A DNA stretch of 64,000 nt, taken from positions 4,650,001 through 4,714,000 of the forward strand of contig JAMSLZ010000001.1 in the NCBI GenBank assembly GCA_026027325.1. The letters are read 5' to 3'. Each line of letters opens with the position of its first letter. Position 1 is the stretch's first letter. Origin of the DNA: Actinomucor elegans. Lineage: Eukaryota; Mucoromycota; Mucoromycetes; Mucorales; Mucoraceae. Below the pieces are notes generated by a model. The model was not told the origin of the DNA. It worked only from the letters and a program-made list of their open reading frames with translations, and did not search any database. Positions 1,521 to 52,679 of this stretch are shown here, piece after piece. The position numbers and the translations under genes were made by a program.

Positions 1521-2925
1521 CTATTGATCTTTCTCTTCTTTACGATTGTTGAACACTTGATCTTTCAACACCTGAGAAAGTAAACCATGGACTGCTTCAA
1601 CAGTAATCTTGGAACTATCTTTTGTGACCTTATTGAGTTGGCTCTCATCATTCTTCTTCCTGTCACCATAATATCCTCCCATTCTTCCTATCATACTATC
1701 GTTTGTCTTGTTTAATTTTTGAGCAAGATCGGCCATTTGTCTTGCCGCATATTCACGATTCTAAAGGATCTAAATTAACACAGTGTTTGTAACTATATTT
1801 AAATACTTGTACTTACTGTTAAGAGTGGAGATTGAGATAACGTGTTCACCCAGTATTTGTTCCATAAAACCTCTATTAGCTGGGCATCCAAAGTTGATTT
1901 AAAATGGGACACTTCCAAAGAATAGTACCTAAATGCACATTAGACTATTGCTAAAAGCCCAATGCAAAAAGTATTTACGATTTAGCATGGACACCAAAGT
2001 CTTCTATCTTATTCAAGGGTATAGTCTGATATTCAGAAGGTCCTTCATCTGGTGGTGTATATCCCTACAGACATGATAAGTACATGTTTAGTCACATTCA
2101 GTAATGAACTTACAGCTGGATAGGTTCTGAAGGCACCAATTTCAACTTTACCAGCAGACATGGTGCGATTAGGATCAATCTGGATCAGCAAAATACATCA
2201 GCTTCTGTGATTAAGCTACATAGACTATCTTCTTTATTTACCACAACAGCTACAAATGGTTCCTGGTACTGTTGATTCAGCATTTGTGTATTAACATCAA
2301 TACCAGATAACCAACAGCCATAACCTGGGTGCGAATGATACCAGCCAAGAACATTTTCCAGTCTACCAACCTGTTTTGTTATGATTTTGTTAAAGAAACG
2401 TCTCTAGATAGTAATATCGTTGTATGTTTACCTCTTTCGACTTTTCAATATATGATACCATATACTCATAAGCTTCATTTTGTGCATTAACTCTGGTCTC
2501 GGTCCCTTCAACAGGAAGAGCAAAGCTATCCATGACATACATCGTATCTCCTTGGATTTTGCCTTGCATTAATCCCATAATTTCGATATTGCCGCCCGAG
2601 CGAGCGTGCATAACCTAAATAATCACTTATTAAGCCTATTTGATAACTGCCGCCCTCTAGTTTCGACTAGGTTACCATTTTAATCAATGCAATCGCTGAG
2701 ATTTTAACATGTTTAAAGTAATGAGGACTATATAGAACTGTTAGAATTGAAATGACGCGTCAAACTATCGAGAAAGTTTGATCTTTACTCTGCTTTCCAA
2801 GGTTTTTGAGCCACGTTTTCTTTATCTTGCACGGCGTCGTAGTAGTAAATGTGATCTAGAGTTGGATCTACGGTGGTTATATTGTTTTCCAACTCCCAAT
2901 TCTTCTGTGCAGTAGCTGCATCCAT
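1521..2925 (-). CDS. CSN5: COP9 signalosome subunit 5 (JAMM deneddylase)
   Basis: Catalytic subunit of the COP9 signalosome, a zinc isopeptidase that removes NEDD8 from cullins and so regulates SCF-type ubiquitin ligases. I start it at ATG 2925 because [15 protein letters not shown] opens the conserved N-terminus; an in-frame upstream extension to 3084 lacks family character. The gene has at least seven coding exons. Exon 1 ends near 2789, exon 2 (reading [16 protein letters not shown]) is about 2655-2717, and the MPN core begins near 2610 with [14 protein letters not shown]. The next exon carries the JAMM motif [14 protein letters not shown], with both metal histidines, the serine and the aspartate intact. 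The C-terminal exon (1521-1755) reads [16 protein letters not shown] and ends in a charged tail. Total is about 330 residues, normal for CSN5. Exon joins were inferred from GT/AG sites and conserved protein sequence. Confidence 0.95.
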
Positions 2926-3715
2926 AGTCAATGGGTTGGTGCAAAAGTTTAGCGCAAAAAAATAGTGTAAAAAGGAAGCAGCCCATTTGAATGCTCGGCG
3001 CACACTCTCTAGTTGGAAGTGTTTGGGTGCTGAATTCTGATTAGAAGCGGAGATTAAACACCCAGTTGCTGCTGCTGGCTTCACTACTTGCCACCTTGGG
3101 GCTCACTCAATAAACTAAAATTTTTGATATTGATTTTAATGGTGAGAAAAGTCATTAAACAAAGATCATCTCGCATTTTAACAAGTCCATGGAGTATATT
3201 TTGATAATAAGCTGCTTTTTTTTTTTTTTTTTAAAAAAAAACAATCATAACTCTGTGTTTTATACAGATACACAGATATGTCTATCTATGCTCATTGGCA
3301 CACAGAGCGTATATTGCTTAACAAACATGTATATGTGATGCTAATTGCACGCCCCAAAAAAGCGCAGAATGACATGAAAGAGGCCGGTGAAGATAACACC
3401 CTTGATTTTCTCCTGAAGTTATCTAGAATCTTAAGGCTTTACATTGAAATATATTTTATATACAACAACAAAACCTACAAGTATATTTATATACTATCCA
3501 ATTTTTTAACTGTAAAGTATACATTGCATGTTGATTAAATTTGCAAGGCCTATGGATCTCTTTATCGATCATGTTCAAATGTTGCATCTGACAAATATTC
3601 CATGTTTAGAATAAATAGCTACATTTATTGATTTCAAGAGTGGGAGAAGCATGCAAAGTAAATCCGTTCGTCAATCATTATACACATATTTTATTTATTA
3701 TATACCATCAATTAA
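2926..3715. other. Spacer between CSN5 and the PH-domain gene
   Basis: Serves as the CSN5 promoter side and the 3' side of the upstream gene. It contains a T17A9 tract (3216-3241). Short frames here do not look coding. Confidence 0.5.
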
Positions 3716-6700
3716 TTATTTACAAGAAAATGGTTGAAGGCGATCATCCATCTTACTGCGTATCATATGTTCAGTTACAGTATTCAATGCACAAACCCAT
3801 TCTTCCTTTTCTCTTCTACTCGGCGCTAGAAAAGTCCACGTACTGCCATTTGGGTTTAACCTCTGATCACGATGATACACACGCAATCGTTGTCTTTGAG
3901 TGCTGAAATAGCGTCTTAATTTGGGTTTCCAAATAGAAAATATACAAGACAAAGTATCATCGTCAGTAGATAAACCATTGCGATAAATACGAGCAGATTT
4001 TTTGATGAGATTATCTTGGTTCGACCCTTTCTTTTTTTTACTGCAGTCAACGCCAGAATAAAAGTAGCTTCCAGCAATATCAAGCGTCCCTTTTCGTTCA
4101 TGATTGCAACTCTTTTTCGTTGAATTTCTATTGTAAACATCGTAAAACAAGATCCATCCATTCGACGTGAGTATAAAAATCTTTTGTGAGTAACTTCCTC
4201 GTTTGTGGGGTTTATAGTACAAAATGCCAGATTTCTAATATAGAGTTTAATTAGCCAAAAAGTTATCACTAAACAAGATTTAAAAAGTTACCACAACATC
4301 ACGGCATTGTTCATAAAAACAATAGCTCCAGATTCGTGTATCCGCTAGCTGTTTTTGTTTCTTTTGAGAAATCTTGATTTCATTGTTCTTGGTTAATGAG
4401 TCGGTTTCAGAAATCGAGCCAATATTACAAGCGCTGCTGGCAAAGTTATCAAGAGAGTGTGCATCTTTTTCAGCTTCTTTACGAGCTTTCCAATATACGA
4501 TAATTTGCGCTAAATAGCTAACCCATAGATCGCATGTATCACTGGAATATGCCTACATTACTGATTAGTACGCGATGCAGTTAGTTCTTCTTTGAGACTT
4601 CCTACTTCAAACTTGATTTGTAAACCATTCGTCATAATGATCTCCAAGCAAGGTTTCTTTCTGCTCGTATTTTCCAAAGAATTTTGTTCATTTTGTGCCA
4701 GCGGCTGATATTTCTTTTGCGAGATCGAAGATCGAGCAGTAGGCCAATGAAGCAAGCTGACATTGCTGCTGCTTGGAATGTCCTGTTCATCATCTATGGT
4801 TTCTGTAAATGCTCTTCTAACATAAGACACTTCGGTCAAGTCAATTACACCTTTGGCTTCAATCATGAGCCGCATACGGCGACGAACTTCGCCTGCTTCA
4901 ACTTCAGGTGTACATGTCTTTGTGTAAGGTGAGACGGCAGACACATAAGGTTGCACTCTAATGTTTTTTGGTAATAAATCTTCATCTATCAAACAAGTGG
5001 TATTGGGTGGTTCCACTTTAGATGCAGGTGCATAGAATAAATATTGGTCAAACGAAGCGAAATAGCTCATTTTTCGATTGCTATGAAAGACACCTGGAGC
5101 GCCGTGGAAGTCAGACACTTGAATCAAGAATCCTTCAACTGGTGGTGGTTCTTTCAATTTCAAATTTTCGGGGAGGATGATATCGTGCGGCGTGTGTTCA
5201 ATCATACGCAGTTCAAGACGGTGTGTTTGCTCAATGCTTTGTGGGCAAATGACTGAATCAATTCGCTTGTTTTGATCGGAAGAAGAGTGCGTCCAATAAA
5301 CCCATTCTGCTCGATCACCAACTGTCCAACAGAGCCCAAAACTGTCTGTTGAAACGGTGTTTTCAGTATTTTCAGTGTTATTACCATTGGAGACCATGAG
5401 ATGTTGACCAAAATCCCACCCATCTTCTTCTAGTACTGATATAACAGCCTCTTTCACGACTTCCATTGTAACCTCATTACTGTCTTTGATATGTGACAAA
5501 GGTAAGTTAACAGAGAGATCCAATACAGGTATATACACTTCACACCATTGAGGAGTGGCACGCTTGCATTCTGATGGTAGCATGTCATACAGTTGCATGT
5601 ACCATTCTTGACATTTTAAAAACGACCTTGCCTTGAAAGTATGCGTGATCATCATGGGTGTATGTGCGCTATTAGATTGATACCGTAGACAAAAGGTATA
5701 ATCCAAAGAGGATAACAGAAATAATTCTAATTTCTTGGGTCTACTGCTTCCTACCAAGTAAATGCGATGTTCAAGCCTTTTTTTAGGCCAATATAATTTC
5801 TATTTAAGCTAGTCAGCGTCTGAACAAGAAGAATTGCTATATACTTACTGAAGATGAGTACGTTGATATATAAGAGTTAGTCAATACGAGCTCTACTTGT
5901 CTCCATTTTTCAGTTAGTAAATCATAACGTGCTTCCTTTGCAGCTTTATAACGCGAAGGCTCAGAGCCTGTATACTCCTTGACAGATCGCATACATAAAA
6001 TAGGCTCTATTTTGATAGGCTTTCCAGTTGGAATAGGCTCTGGCTCAGGTGTAACAATGGTGGGTATTCGAGAAGCAACAATGGCTGATCCAGGCTTTCT
6101 CCAAAGTAAAGACTTCTTTTTACTACCCAGACGTACAGAACGACGCATCCTTTTCTTTTTCTGTGCATTTGTTGGTAAAGAAGATGTTGCAGTTGCAGGT
6201 GGCGAAGGTGGAGGAGTTTCTTCATGAGGTTGGTTCATTGGTAGTTTACCTTTGTTCTGTTGTGTTGGTCTTATTGTCTTGATAGATTCTGCGTCGGTGC
6301 TGCTGCTTAATATATCTTCTTTTGGCTGAGCAGAGGATGATGCTTCTACGGTTGTATCTATTAATTCATTTCCTGAGGAAACAAGTAAACTATAATCGAT
6401 TTCATCCTCATCCTCTTGTTCAGCCATTCTTTCTAGAAATCGGTAAGAAGAATTGACACTACTGCGATAGGGTGAAGAATGAGTCTGAGAGCGAGCAGTA
6501 ACAAAACTTGTTCCATCTGAGCTCGTATGGTCATAAACTGGCCCAGGTGATATAATACCAGGAGATTTGGTGCTATTGGTGATTTCACTGCCCTTTCTCG
6601 GACGTATCGCAGTAATGGAACTCGTGTGGCTAAGTCGGATTATTAGATGACCTTTCTCGGTGTATATACTCATATATATATATGTATGCTTACTCGTGCA

Positions 6701-28300: not shown

Positions 28301-29079
28301 TGGATAATACACTAATGGCGTAGGTTAATTCTTGCAGTAGAATGCGAGTTGTGAAGTAACCGAGTACGTTTTTCTATCGATTTTTTTTAGTGCATTAAAG
28401 GACTGTCATTTTTTTTTTTGTAAAGCCAAATCAAGAAAAAGATACATTCATTCCAGCTTTTAATTTTACACTATTTTTGGAAAATATTCGTGCATTTTCT
28501 AGATTGGATTTCGTACATCGTAAGCAAAAATATTCGTACGCTATCAGGAAAACATTTTGTACGATATCTGAATAAAAAAATTGTTCATTTATTTAAAAAT
28601 ACAGGGTCAAAAAAAAAAGCTAGACGAGACCAGAGATACCTGTGATAATCATATTATTAGTATAGAAGATCTCAATCAACTTTTCAAAGAATTCTTTCAA
28701 CATGAATATAGTGTAGTTTTAACATAATTCCGAGCACTACACAATTGAAAAATGTATACTGTAATGAATTTTATTTTTGCATACTCGTAGTGTCATATAA
28801 GCATAAATTACGCAACGGTAGCTACGTTTATGTTCTTACATAAGATAGTTGATGAATGCATTCTACCCACTTAGTGTAGTAGTCTTCAATAGGTTCGTTT
28901 TAAACTCGAGATTGTAATGGAGATGGTTGCTGCACCAGGACCTACTGTTTGATCAGATGTTTCATTAGCGTTATTTTCCATCCATTATTCAGTTTCATCT
29001 ACAATGATAATGTATTAACGATTTTTATCAATACCTATTTCAAGCGCATGCAAGCCAAGTTTGTTCAGGTTAATATGGC

Positions 29080-29113
<34 letters not shown>

Positions 29114-29223
29114 GAACGGCATAATCCGTTAACCTGACTGATGACTTTGGTATCTTAAATTGAAACTCTCTGCCTACATCAGGAAACAAATTGCTTACCA
29201 AGGTTTTATAAAAAAAACTGCGA

Positions 29224-29700
29224 GATTGCCTTGGCGCTAATGCTGCCTTGGTGATGGGTAGCTGATCTGCTCCTAATGTTTGATTTCAAGAGCCTACCAG
29301 AAACATAAGATTCCGCAAGCTTCTTGCGAAACATGGTTTCCAGGTGTATTTAATTGAAGAGCTCAGAACGAGCCGATATTGCCTATCTTGCTAACGTTCA
29401 AGATGGTTCCAAATCCACGACCTTATAAACATCAAGTAAATCCCCGAGTTTTTCGACGAGGCCCACTGAAGTATCTATACTATTTTATTAATGTAAACAT
29501 CAATGCTCACTTTTATTTTTGGTAATAGGTGTACAAATCAAAACTATCAATAGGCCACCCGTCGTACTCGAGATGAGCTGCCGACCGTTTGTAGAATCGC
29601 GATTTGGCTTGTCTAAATGTAATTTTATTATACATTTCTCTTAAGATTCCAGCGTGGCATTATTACTCCTGCAAGAAGAAATAGAAGAAGACCGAACTAA
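29224..29700 (+). pseudogene. Decayed Fanzor (TnpB-like RNA-guided nuclease) C-terminal region
   Basis: Translating the plus strand gives ALVMGS-stop-SAPNV-stop-FQEP, then FRKLLAKHGFQVYLIEELRT and SRYCLSC (29224-29391). After a one-base shift come KMVPNPRPYKHQVNPRVF and RRGPLK (29400-29475), an intron-like gap (29494-29528), then DRL-stop-NRDLACLNVI (29583-29624). This order matches the RuvC-like core of eukaryotic Fanzor/TnpB proteins: the G-x-W-S-A-P segment, the (D/E)EFRTS plus CxxC zinc knuckle, the NPRPYxR block, and the RLWNRDL catalytic aspartate. Four in-frame stops and one frameshift show it is dead. Two stops stand where Trp (TGG) is expected (SWSAP, LWNRD). Only the C-terminal half is recognisable; I could not find ends or guide-RNA sequence. 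The family call rests on remembered motifs. Confidence 0.6.
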
Positions 29701-30671
29701 CACCAGCAATATCAACAACATGTACGTCGTAGGGATCAGTAAGAATTCCGGTCTGGTCATCGCTAGGCCATACGTATACACGGCCTTGGTAAAACGAAGA
29801 GACTCGGTAAGCTCGGTATTCTCTCTATTTATCAATATATATTAACTTTTTTTCCATTTACTGTTCATCTCTCTTGCTTTCATTATATTCAATGCAAGTT
29901 ACTATTATCCTATCATTTGCTTACTATTGACTGATTTTTATTCTTTTCACTATGCATCATTTATTGTATTGTTTATCAAACGAATTATTTTTTATTTATT
30001 ATGTGAAAATTTATCCAATAACTGAACAAATAATTCCGGAATAAAGTGTATAGAGGCCCTTATTTAAGTAGTCAATTGCCATGGCTACCCTATCTTGGAA
30101 ATACTCTAGGTATCTCCACATTGAAAGAGCCCAAAGCAAAGTAGTATGTCTTTTTTTTTCTATGCACAAAAATTTAGCTTAATTCAATGCAGTACCTAAT
30201 AATTAGCATCTAACTTGGCTATTTATCAATATGTTGGGGTTAATGGAACCTAATGCTTTTCCTTCTTCCCTATGAGCATATCGACTATAGGCAATGGTTG
30301 GAACACGTAAAAAACCTCAAGGAAAGCGTCATATTCGCACAATACATTCTCGATTTCCATTGGTTATCTGTGTTTATTCAATAACCTTACTTGATTGGCT
30401 GAAATATGATTGAGCATCAGAGAACCAAATTAATGCATTTTTTGTTGTTGTAATTCGATTTTCTAACTGTTGAACAGTATTAATACAAAACAAGTTTCTT
30501 TATAAAGAATAGTTTTTATGGACAGGAATGCATATATATCACCTCCCAGCAGTGGTAATACTCACATTCGCTTAAATTAAAAAAAAAAGTCCCTTTTATA
30601 TACTTGCATCTTAGGGTCAAAAATCATGCTGACAAGTATCACATTCGGGTATGACTGGAATTTCTGGATCA

Positions 30672-50322: not shown

Positions 50323-51330
50323 TTAAAGATTATCTTTGTTTAAACATTTTTGGAAGTTTTCACTAGAATGTCTAATAATACTTTGAAGGGCATCAACAGG
50401 AATATCTTGACTAGCTTCACTTATTCTTGTCTTCAAGTCTTTAGCATCGCCAAATTGGCTTCGCTTTACTTTGCCTTTGAGTAAAGCCCAGAACTGCTCG
50501 ATTGGGTTCAGTTCAGGAGAATACGAAGGAAGGCAAACACTTCTATATCCCCTTCACTCTATCATTCCATCAATATCGTCCTCAGATTTATGGATGGGAG
50601 CATTATCCACTATAACGTAGAAGTTTTCCATTTCTGGAAATTTGTCCATTTCATTCAGCATCTTGGATATAAACCTCATGTAGTGACCAGCTGTTGTCCC
50701 GGTCGTCTTTTTCTCGGCCGCTGGTGCATTATTTCTCTCCTTACCGCCAGCAACTTTGATCTTTTTGGACTTCAGAGGCTCTCTCACTTCAACACTTACA
50801 ACGCCCTGAGAAGAAATAGCTCCAAGTATTGTATGAGAAATTGCACGGGTCGAAGGAGTCTCGACTATTGCTGGAGTGCCACAGAGAGAACGTCCATAGG
50901 GAGCCCTCATGTTGATATTAAAGGCAGCTTCATCCACAAAAACGCAATTTGTCAAGTAGTTTATGTCAGTTTTTAGCATTGTTGTCACTCACTCAAAGCG
51001 CTTTTGGATTTGTTCATCACTGTTTCTTGCAAGAGGTTGAGGCGTGATTCTTTTGAAAGTCAAGTTGCAATCATAAAGGATAAAGTCACCAACTGAAGTC
51101 TTTTTCAAAGAGAATTCTTCAAAAGCTTTGGTCAAGCTGCCCACAGCATCCTGCTTTGAAGCTTGAGGGTACTCATCGTAAAACTTAGTGAGGTGCTCTT
51201 TGTGCTCATCTTGTAATTGAGAAGAAGGGCGATTGACTTTGTTGGTATCTTTTTCGTAGATGTTCCAACTTGGATCCTCCTTCAGTCTTTTTGCCCAAGT
51301 CTGAGCAGTACGCTCCGCTATTCCTGCCAT
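50323..51330 (-). mobile_element. Inactivated Tc1/mariner-type (IS630-like) transposase
   Basis: One minus-strand frame of 336 codons, interrupted by TGA at 50989-50991 and TGA at 50554-50556, otherwise co-linear and well preserved. The N-terminal helix-turn-helix reads MAGIAERTAQTWAKRLKEDP. The DDE domain (PF13358 type) has FVDEAAFNINMRAPYGRSLC (first Asp), YVIVDNAPIHKSEDDIDGMI (second Asp) and, after the second stop, LPSYSPELNPIEQFWALLKG (catalytic Glu). Spacing between the last two acidic residues is about 35. Both stops lie where a Trp or Arg codon would be one transition away. The true N-terminus is missing or truncated upstream of 51330, since the frame there runs into a TGA at once. 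With only two lesions this is a fairly recent, non-autonomous copy. Terminal repeats were not resolved. Confidence 0.85.
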
Positions 51331-52679
51331 TCTGCCCGAAGGAGTTACCCTTCATAGCTTAATTCTATTAAAGTAATAAAAAAGAGTACGCTGTTTGTCT
51401 GAATAGACGTTGTTTTTTCTTCACTTTTTTTTTAAAAAAAAATGAAAAGAAAAGGTATTGGAATACTAGAAAATAGTTGCACTCAAAACATGGTCAAACC
51501 AGTAGGAGTTGATTGATTGACTGTTTGAGAAAAAGTAATGGAGTGATTGTGTTAAAGCTTTGTTAAATCATTCCCCCTTTTGAGGACAGTGGTGGTTCCT
51601 TTGGGAGAGTCCTCCCCCCCTTCCTAGAGGACGCGAGCGTAGTGTGTATAGAAAACAGCAAGTTTAATGTAATCTAGAGCTAAGGAATAATAGATCTTCC
51701 AACCAATTCCGGTTTGATGGCGTATATTAGTGATTCATGCTCTGAATGAGCCATTGCATCTATTGACACTTTTATTTGATTCTAATGCTTTTATTGTATT
51801 AAATTACTATTGATAATTTATTACCATCAACAAAATTTGTAAAATGCGTTGGGTTTCTCAGATCTAGAGACTATTATTCAGTCCGAGTACTCAAATATGT
51901 TTACACAAATTTCTGTGTTGTTCTAACAGATAAAGATCATACTGACTATAGATTTATACAAGTTGACTCATTGAAAAGTGAAAATTATTCTCTATTATTT
52001 GTCTGAAAACCATTGTATTGGCTCTGTTTATTAGTGGATTGGATGCAAGACATCATGGGAGCTTTTTCGATCATTGCTGTTGTCATTTAGACGTTCCGGT
52101 GTATAGGTGGTCTTTAACAATCGCCTACGATAATGCATGGATATTAAAATCAGTTGTCAAGAAAGATGATGTTTGCGTTTGTCCATTACCTAGAATTCAA
52201 TGACTTACCTCAACCCATTGCTGACACAGACCATATGAAGCGACCTTTAGGAGAAGCTTGAAGAAGCATATAGCCCGTTCTCCACCATCCAATGAAGTAG
52301 CCTTATCTACTATAATTATTAAAAATCCGCTACTGATTGTAAAAGTGCATGACCCTGCTTGCTTGGAATGAGCCTCTGGCCCTGCCATTTCGTTATTCCG
52401 TATTAAATGACGCGTATTGGAGCATATACAACAGTCCACGGTCGAATTATACACAACAGCTGTTGATTAAAGTACTTATTCTGGGTATTTTCAACTAGAT
52501 CAGCGTCTAATCATGGGTTAAATACGGTAGTATATACCGAATATCTGTTGCTGCTGCTGCACTTTCATTATCACATGCAAATAATAGATTATAAATTTTT
52601 CCATTATAAATGTTCAGTTAGTTTTTGCCTTCTTTCTTTCCCCACATTCTGTCGCTTTTTTTCTTTCTAATCATTGACC
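51331..52679. other. Spacer with repeat copy and T9A9 tract
   Basis: Contains a T9A9 tract (51425-51442), a C-rich patch (51585-51625) and a third copy of the dispersed repeat (51734-51764). Frames at 52018-52203 and 52197-52454 were considered and rejected. The last 60 bp are a pyrimidine-rich leader for the ABC transporter. Confidence 0.5.
51734..51764 (+). repeat. Diverged copy of the dispersed repeat
   Basis: TTCATGC...GAATGAGCC...TGCATCTATT matches 20660-20690 at 23 of 31 positions. It lies about 400 bp beyond the transposase relic on the same side. Confidence 0.4.

Follow-up and report, generated by a model that had tools for sequence, protein, structure and literature searches.

What is the broken reading frame at positions 29224-29700 of a 64,000-nucleotide stretch of the Actinomucor elegans genome (contig JAMSLZ010000001.1; the whole stretch is called the window below), and what brought it there? 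In an initial annotation it had been taken for the relic of a Fanzor, a eukaryotic cousin of the CRISPR nucleases. We found that this interval holds the 3' gene remnant but is too narrow for the element, which measures 1580 bp (28469-30048) and runs from CACT to AGTG with TA outside both ends. It is very probably a dead, internally deleted transposable element that carried a Fanzor1 gene and has ends of the Tc1/mariner DD34E kind; it was probably moved in trans.

The Fanzor identity was borne out by comparison with solved structures. All four motif pieces named earlier were present, in order, in broken frames of the plus strand within 29224-29700. One frame (codon starts equal to 1 mod 3, 29224-29391) holds S-stop-SAPNV and VYLIEELRTSRYCLSC and aligns with residues 1122-1177 of the PpFz1 chain of Parasitella parasitica (PDB 9cf0). 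When 29224-29523 was read as a single frame with X at stops (100 residues, 6 stops), the PDB sequence set yielded two Fanzor chains and no other match with E up to 10: PpFz1 with E 4.7e-14 and, weakly, SpuFz1 of Spizellomyces punctatus (8gkh, E 0.35). Identity to PpFz1 was 50% over 60 residues of the RuvC-II/zinc region. In tblastn the PpFz1 RuvC-II piece scored 66.6 bits on the real DNA, against a maximum of 22.7 and a mean of 4.6 in 1000 dinucleotide shuffles of 29150-29720. In the rest of the window the same piece reached at most 19.6 bits and the RuvC-I piece at most 20.8 bits.

The matched part corresponds to a RuvC-II/first Cys pair remnant at 29212-29391 (plus strand), with stops at 29263 and 29281. 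The aligned catalytic Glu codon falls at 29359-29361, as placed by the 8gkh alignments and the SpuFz1 catalytic residues D383/E541 given in a passage of PMC11423790, and the CxxC codons at 29380-29391. TSRYCLSC at 29368-29391 agrees with the C-terminal Fanzor1 motif, [TS][TS]xx followed by the first Cys pair, as described in a passage of Bao and Jurka 2013 (PMC3627910). NPRPYKHQVNP (from 29412) belongs to a target-nucleic-acid-binding (TNB) remnant at 29403-29470 on the plus strand, frame-shifted relative to the RuvC-II part; in a sister copy on contig C12 (L003/L035) counterparts of both motifs lie in one frame. NPRPYKHQVNP and RL-stop-NRDLA share another frame (0 mod 3). Between them we placed, by eye, a probable intron (GTATCT...TAG, 29471-29528, plus strand), followed by a probable RuvC-III exon at 29541-29618 (plus strand) that contains RL-stop-NRDLA, with its Asp codon at 29601-29603. 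A second probable intron before 29644 and a probable last exon, RFQRGIITPARRNRRRPN and then TAA (29644-29700, plus strand), were likewise drawn by eye; the two copies on contig C5 have a similar RFQHGTAML tail after NRDLA. NRD is thus present after the stop at 29592, and a second Cys pair was not recognisable by eye.

Two of the stops had been proposed to stand at expected Trp codons, and this agrees with our alignments. The stop at 29263-29265 is aligned to a Trp of PpFz1, and at the place of the stop at 29592-29594 two sister copies read RLWNRDLA, though these are 94% identical to each other and count as about one witness. The suggested G-to-A origin of the stops resembles ordinary transition decay: transitions and transversions among the copies numbered 3437 and 1753, and no C-to-T or G-to-A excess towards the window copy was found. 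Judged by these substitution counts, no signature of repeat-induced mutation was seen.

Conservation between copies was then informative about past coding. Twenty-eight loci were given to nhmmer, and 21 of them gave 31 matches to the window element; the copies are inter-related, so codon and periodicity values serve as guides. In 29224-29391, mismatches at codon positions 1, 2 and 3 occurred at rates of 0.280, 0.243 and 0.416 (permutation P 4e-4; scan-wide P 0.011). A BLOSUM codon test gave z 3.81 for the predicted RuvC-II frame (20 copies), the next best of the six frames reaching z 2.60, an opposite-strand frame with shared third positions. For the NPRPY stretch (29400-29480) z was 2.30 with 18 copies. 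This pattern argues for past protein-coding constraint. We read the coding remnant as a broken Fanzor1 with RuvC-II and zinc region, RuvC-III being less supported, and the comparison supports PpFz1 as the closest relative among solved structures.

No such signal was obtained for the flanking parts, neither for the 3' part (16 copies, maximum z 1.39) nor for the 5' part (six frames, 6 copies, maximum z 1.15). The latter, at 28493-29158 on the plus strand, had no detectable reading frame by codon test or PDB comparison, one of its frames giving only chance PDB matches (E >= 1.2). Within it, 28882-29049 displayed a three-base periodicity of substitutions (scan-wide P 0.007) with no conserved frame on either strand; this periodicity is as strong as that of RuvC-II and speaks against a simple reading of such values. 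A VDE-like string had suggested a minus-strand transposase there, and this candidate was rejected, as 121 transposases gave no tblastn match to it and no codon signal was present.

Is the window copy alone? Related repeats, whose absence from the genome had been named as telling against a Fanzor, form a dispersed family. In the 36.5 Mb genome (27 contigs), a DNA search with 29100-29900 gave 25 matches including self at 18 distinct places. A search with the protein piece gave 22 matches including self, 19 with in-frame stops and 3 without, and these three span just 36 to 62 query residues. The protein search added 7 places (about 25), and the 5' part (28640-29080; 13 genome matches including self) added 5 more, for about 30 overall; these place counts are lower bounds. 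The search for paralogues thus yielded about 25-30 related places and no intact gene; the intact relatives that had been suggested as possible were not found by these piece-based searches. Aligned copies were 59-80% identical to the window copy, and several have common ends but differing flanks. Two relics on contig C5 (L036:4344-4966 and L037:3660-4276) lie about 8 kb apart in opposite orientation and are 93.7% identical, far closer than other compared pairs, which points to a later local duplication.

Further parts of PpFz1 were found, in order, in other copies: L036 matches an N-terminal part (E 2.4e-5; no Fanzor was matched by either of the remaining frames), L032 matches RuvC-I and RuvC-II (E 1.5e-13), and L033 matches RuvC-I. 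The window copy itself lacks the RuvC-I catalytic Asp, the stretch being deleted at about 29157, and no credible PpFz1 RuvC-I match was found in the window. Since the RuvC-I Asp region is present in L032 and L033, the family is Fanzor1, and the window copy is a fragment of such a gene.

The deletion was located by comparison with the longest copy, L036, to which (once oriented) the window aligned at L036 positions 109-521, 523-573 and 2585-3230. From the gap, about 2.0 kb are absent from the window copy at a junction with a 3-bp overlap (29156-29158). Most of the gene was removed, including the RuvC-I motif, and the RuvC-II Glu and NRD Asp codons were kept. Other copies break elsewhere (L039 at 679/2521, L041 at 722/2681, L033 at 233/2001). 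A long T run at 29084-29112, just left of the junction, is shorter or absent in the three sister copies that align at this place.

The Pfam match above cut-off that had been proposed as a check did not appear, as no family was reported for four short window pieces, and a piece of a sister copy, L040, also stayed under the Pfam cut-off (E 0.036). The family was recognisable through codon conservation and an RNA stem (below) though the Pfam profile was under its cut-off, so Fanzor counts in such fungi that rely on intact genes or on that profile may be too low. The single genome match to PF07282 (L009:1405-1716) was sub-threshold and by eye belonged to a FYVE/RING-type protein; it was set aside, and is a trap for Fanzor scans made by profile only. 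L040 also has a 500-aa open frame (4607-6109) in which CCHC zinc-knuckle-like motifs were seen by eye; it runs antisense to the Fanzor relic, overlaps the relic's 5' part and is perhaps the first open reading frame of a retrotransposon. Two Fanzor pieces gave no match in a protein database that includes Mucorales proteins, with a tool that requires shared exact words, so this result does not speak for absence.

The RNA stem lies roughly 50 nt downstream of where the gene presumably stops (29700). It is a hairpin at 29750-29769 (plus strand) with 8 bp and a 4-nt loop, a candidate for stem-loop 1 (SL1) of an omega-RNA. Eighteen sequences cover it; the short rows L027 and L029 were dropped and 16 were counted. 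In these, 87.9% of cells were paired and covariation was 0.520 against 0.317 in shuffles (0/500). Both-side changes were seen in 6 of the 8 pairs (reached by 1/500 shuffles) and in 15 cells, against 3.1 in shuffles (0/500), and there were 16 pair types against 12.9 (10/500). Slid controls gave at most 51% pairing and covariation of at most 0.156. In a scan of all stems the hairpin came out on top, equalled in both-side cells (7) by one long-range stem, and consensus folds of ten 3' windows contained one hairpin and nothing else. A second stem like PpFz1 SL2 was considered and was not supported (74% paired, little covariation), and Rfam gave one chance-level match (E 0.75), its 17.5 bits being far from the gathering score of 105. 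For comparison, SL1 has 7 bp in three published Fanzor1 omega-RNAs, and the PpFz1 omega-RNA is 75 nt long, according to passages of PMC11423790.

How did the element move? Its left terminal inverted repeat, CACTATTTTTGGAAAATATTCGTG, occupies 28469-28492 (plus strand) and is followed by TTCGTnCA-like boxes, read by eye, to about 28610. The right one, which reads CACTTTATTCCGGAATTATTTGTT inward, occupies 30025-30048 (minus strand). The target-site duplication TA is at 28467-28468, where the flank ...TTTTA precedes CACT, and at 30049-30050. The two repeats are identical at 16 of 24 positions, which random TA-anchored pairs reach with P 1.1e-4. A degenerate end pattern was drawn by eye from the window copy (both ends) and from L034 and L038 (right end only); it matched 50 genome sites, where the reversed control matched 31. 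Among its nine exact sites, one was the end of relic L034, which had helped to make the pattern, and eight were ends of one Tc1/mariner family, seven with transposase sequence nearby and one an end only. The left repeat matched the Tc1/mariner end at 20 of 24 positions, as did 1 of 10786 TA-anchored window positions, self included; the right repeat matched at 19 of 24, a level found at 2 of 10786 positions, both of them ends of this relic. In a 140-bp comparison, the window copy, L034 and L038 scored 43, 55 and 49 at their right ends, above the null maximum of 34 (1441 draws).

The transposon was identified through its own transposase and target duplication. In its copies on contigs C12 and C22 the end matches are 1710 bp apart, and the copies are 99.8% identical over 1525 bases compared. 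Both hold a 450-aa transposase frame with no stops and a DDE_3 domain (PF13358, E 9.8e-28); D249, D358 and E393, the latter pair separated by 34 residues, make it a DD34E enzyme. The C12 copy is inserted at a TA within a gene for an IS1595-like transposase (PF12762, E 3e-18 for the piece right of the transposon), and its TA duplication was shown by an empty site. Homologues named among the best 120 of 645 came from Rhizopus, Parasitella, Mucor, Absidia and Rhizomucor, which makes a Mucorales host probable. Besides this family, nine near-equal matches with 36-37% identity to the C12 transposase (on C7, C21 (two), C10, C4, C24 (two) and C2 (two)) hold open frames of 556-608 aa with no stops, and form a second Tc1-type family with many open copies.

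As to membership in Tc1/mariner, the Fanzor elements share inverted repeats, weaker at the left end, and the TA duplication, and no DDE/D transposase of their own was found. Their ends resemble those of the DD34E transposon, so they were probably moved in trans.

Several observations weigh against this account. The window and 22 loci gave no transposase in Fanzor elements (121 transposases, tblastn, E up to 0.01), and so these can at most be non-autonomous Tc1/mariner members moved in trans. Matches to these queries lay only in the flank of L036 and on the minus strand of the window at 50326-51453, where a separate relic of a Tc1/mariner transposase, with 4 TGA, shares about 40% identity with the one on C12. 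The left end of the window copy scored just 32 over 140 bp, which 2 of 1441 null draws reached, and the end pattern was derived from relic ends, so the likeness to Tc1/mariner ends was looked for and did not come from a blind scan. Since the relics are old and the transposon copies young, the actual mover may have been an older relative of this transposase. In the gene, the frame with NPRPYKHQVNP and NRD matched 0 PDB sequences up to E 10, and the codon test of the NRD exon was not significant (z 0.84, 19 copies); it thus spoke for two of the predicted frames, RuvC-II and NPRPY, and left RL-(W)-NRDLA undecided. The N-terminal piece of L036 had no second genome copy. Finally, about 280 nt separate the hairpin from the right end, against 75 nt for the whole PpFz1 omega-RNA; to include a guide from the flank, the RNA would have to be longer, and the hairpin may not be the omega-RNA.

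As to who moved the element, the strongest competing explanation is that another transposase, for example MuDR, mobilised the Fanzor and that the likeness to Tc1/mariner is a convergence of short AT-rich ends. MuDR-type mobilisation has been published for some Mucorales Fanzor1 elements, the ends are indeed AT-rich and the left one is poor over 140 bp. We nevertheless consider this explanation unlikely, because, of all TA-anchored positions in 64 kb, the relic's ends are the two that match the Tc1/mariner end best, the right ends of three copies exceed every null draw over 140 bp, and TA stands at both ends of the window copy.

That the remnant stems from one host TnpB-like gene turned pseudogene, outside any mobile element, would suit the survival of just a C-terminal remnant with no transposase match inside. 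It is contradicted by about 25 dispersed places, several with common ends and differing flanks, and is very improbable. The lack of a Pfam match for four short pieces could likewise be expected if a broken AT-rich repeat resembled a zinc-ribbon motif by chance, an explanation to which we give next to no weight: it is refuted by the PDB match and the shuffles, by copies that match further PpFz1 parts in order and by codon conservation in two predicted frames.

If the element was a Fanzor1 carrier moved by a Tc1/mariner enzyme, its history may be pictured as follows. The live Fanzor protein would have bound an RNA made from the 3' part, with its first stem at 29750-29769, and would have cleaved DNA that matched its guide. 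A Tc1/mariner transposase supplied from elsewhere would have cut and pasted the element at TA sites, and Fanzor cleavage of the emptied or sister site could have let repair copy the element back, which fits published proposals. Interrupted repair could have produced the differing internal deletions, with decay of the copies afterwards. A more specific version, which we put forward tentatively and hold to be somewhat doubtful, is that Fanzor1 elements were passengers of a DD34E lineage whose young open copies, with like ends and the same sub-terminal TTCGTnCA boxes, outlived them, the dead copies keeping the RNA stem and ends and losing the gene middle by separate deletions. Taken alone, the window copy is an ordinary dead relic; it is of interest for the ends it shares and for its conserved stem. 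As a transposase gene with similar repeats is present in the same genome, the idea that Fanzor elements are mobilised in trans becomes directly testable. Were the passenger version true, RNA, ends and transposase could be paired in one genome, which could show whether Fanzor cleavage helps a cut-and-paste transposon to get copied.

How does this compare with known systems? The PUl elements have an oomycete host. Searches of the open-licence literature returned, for Mucorales or P. parasitica Fanzors, PMC11423790 alone, and for Fanzor pseudogenes just two papers on other topics; in PMC10711439 no passage was found on Mucor, Rhizopus, Parasitella, pseudogenes, or degraded or fungal copies. The relic resembles PpFz1 (PDB 9cf0-9cf3; PMC11423790) in the RuvC-II/zinc region and, through family copies, in RuvC-I and the N-terminal part. 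Its hairpin is about the size of the published SL1 (7 bp there, 8 bp here) and is also close to where the gene ends. In vitro PpFz1 cleaves DNA, whereas the window copy is broken and lacks RuvC-I.

Spu-1 and its ghost loci in Spizellomyces punctatus, in the passages of PMC10432273 that treat them, also show a Fanzor between inverted repeats and many gene-less loci, with the omega-RNA encoded 3' of the Fanzor gene. Full-length copies exist there and no intact one was found here; those passages report no transposase flanked by Spu-1 repeats, whereas here there is a transposase with similar repeats. That work also suggests that Fanzor helps other transposons in trans. Passages of PMC3627910 describe Fanzor1 in elements of the mariner, MuDR and further types, Mucorales among the hosts, so that a Fanzor1 in a mariner-type element is a kind already known, of which ours is a further case. 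Such a case are PUl-1, PUl-4 and PGv-1 (Bao and Jurka 2013, PMC3627910), described there as Fanzor1 between mariner-like inverted repeats with TA duplications, PUl-4 encoding Fanzor only. Those elements have other hosts, PGv being from a virus; in contrast to them, the copies examined here are decayed, and a matching open-frame transposon lies elsewhere in the same genome.
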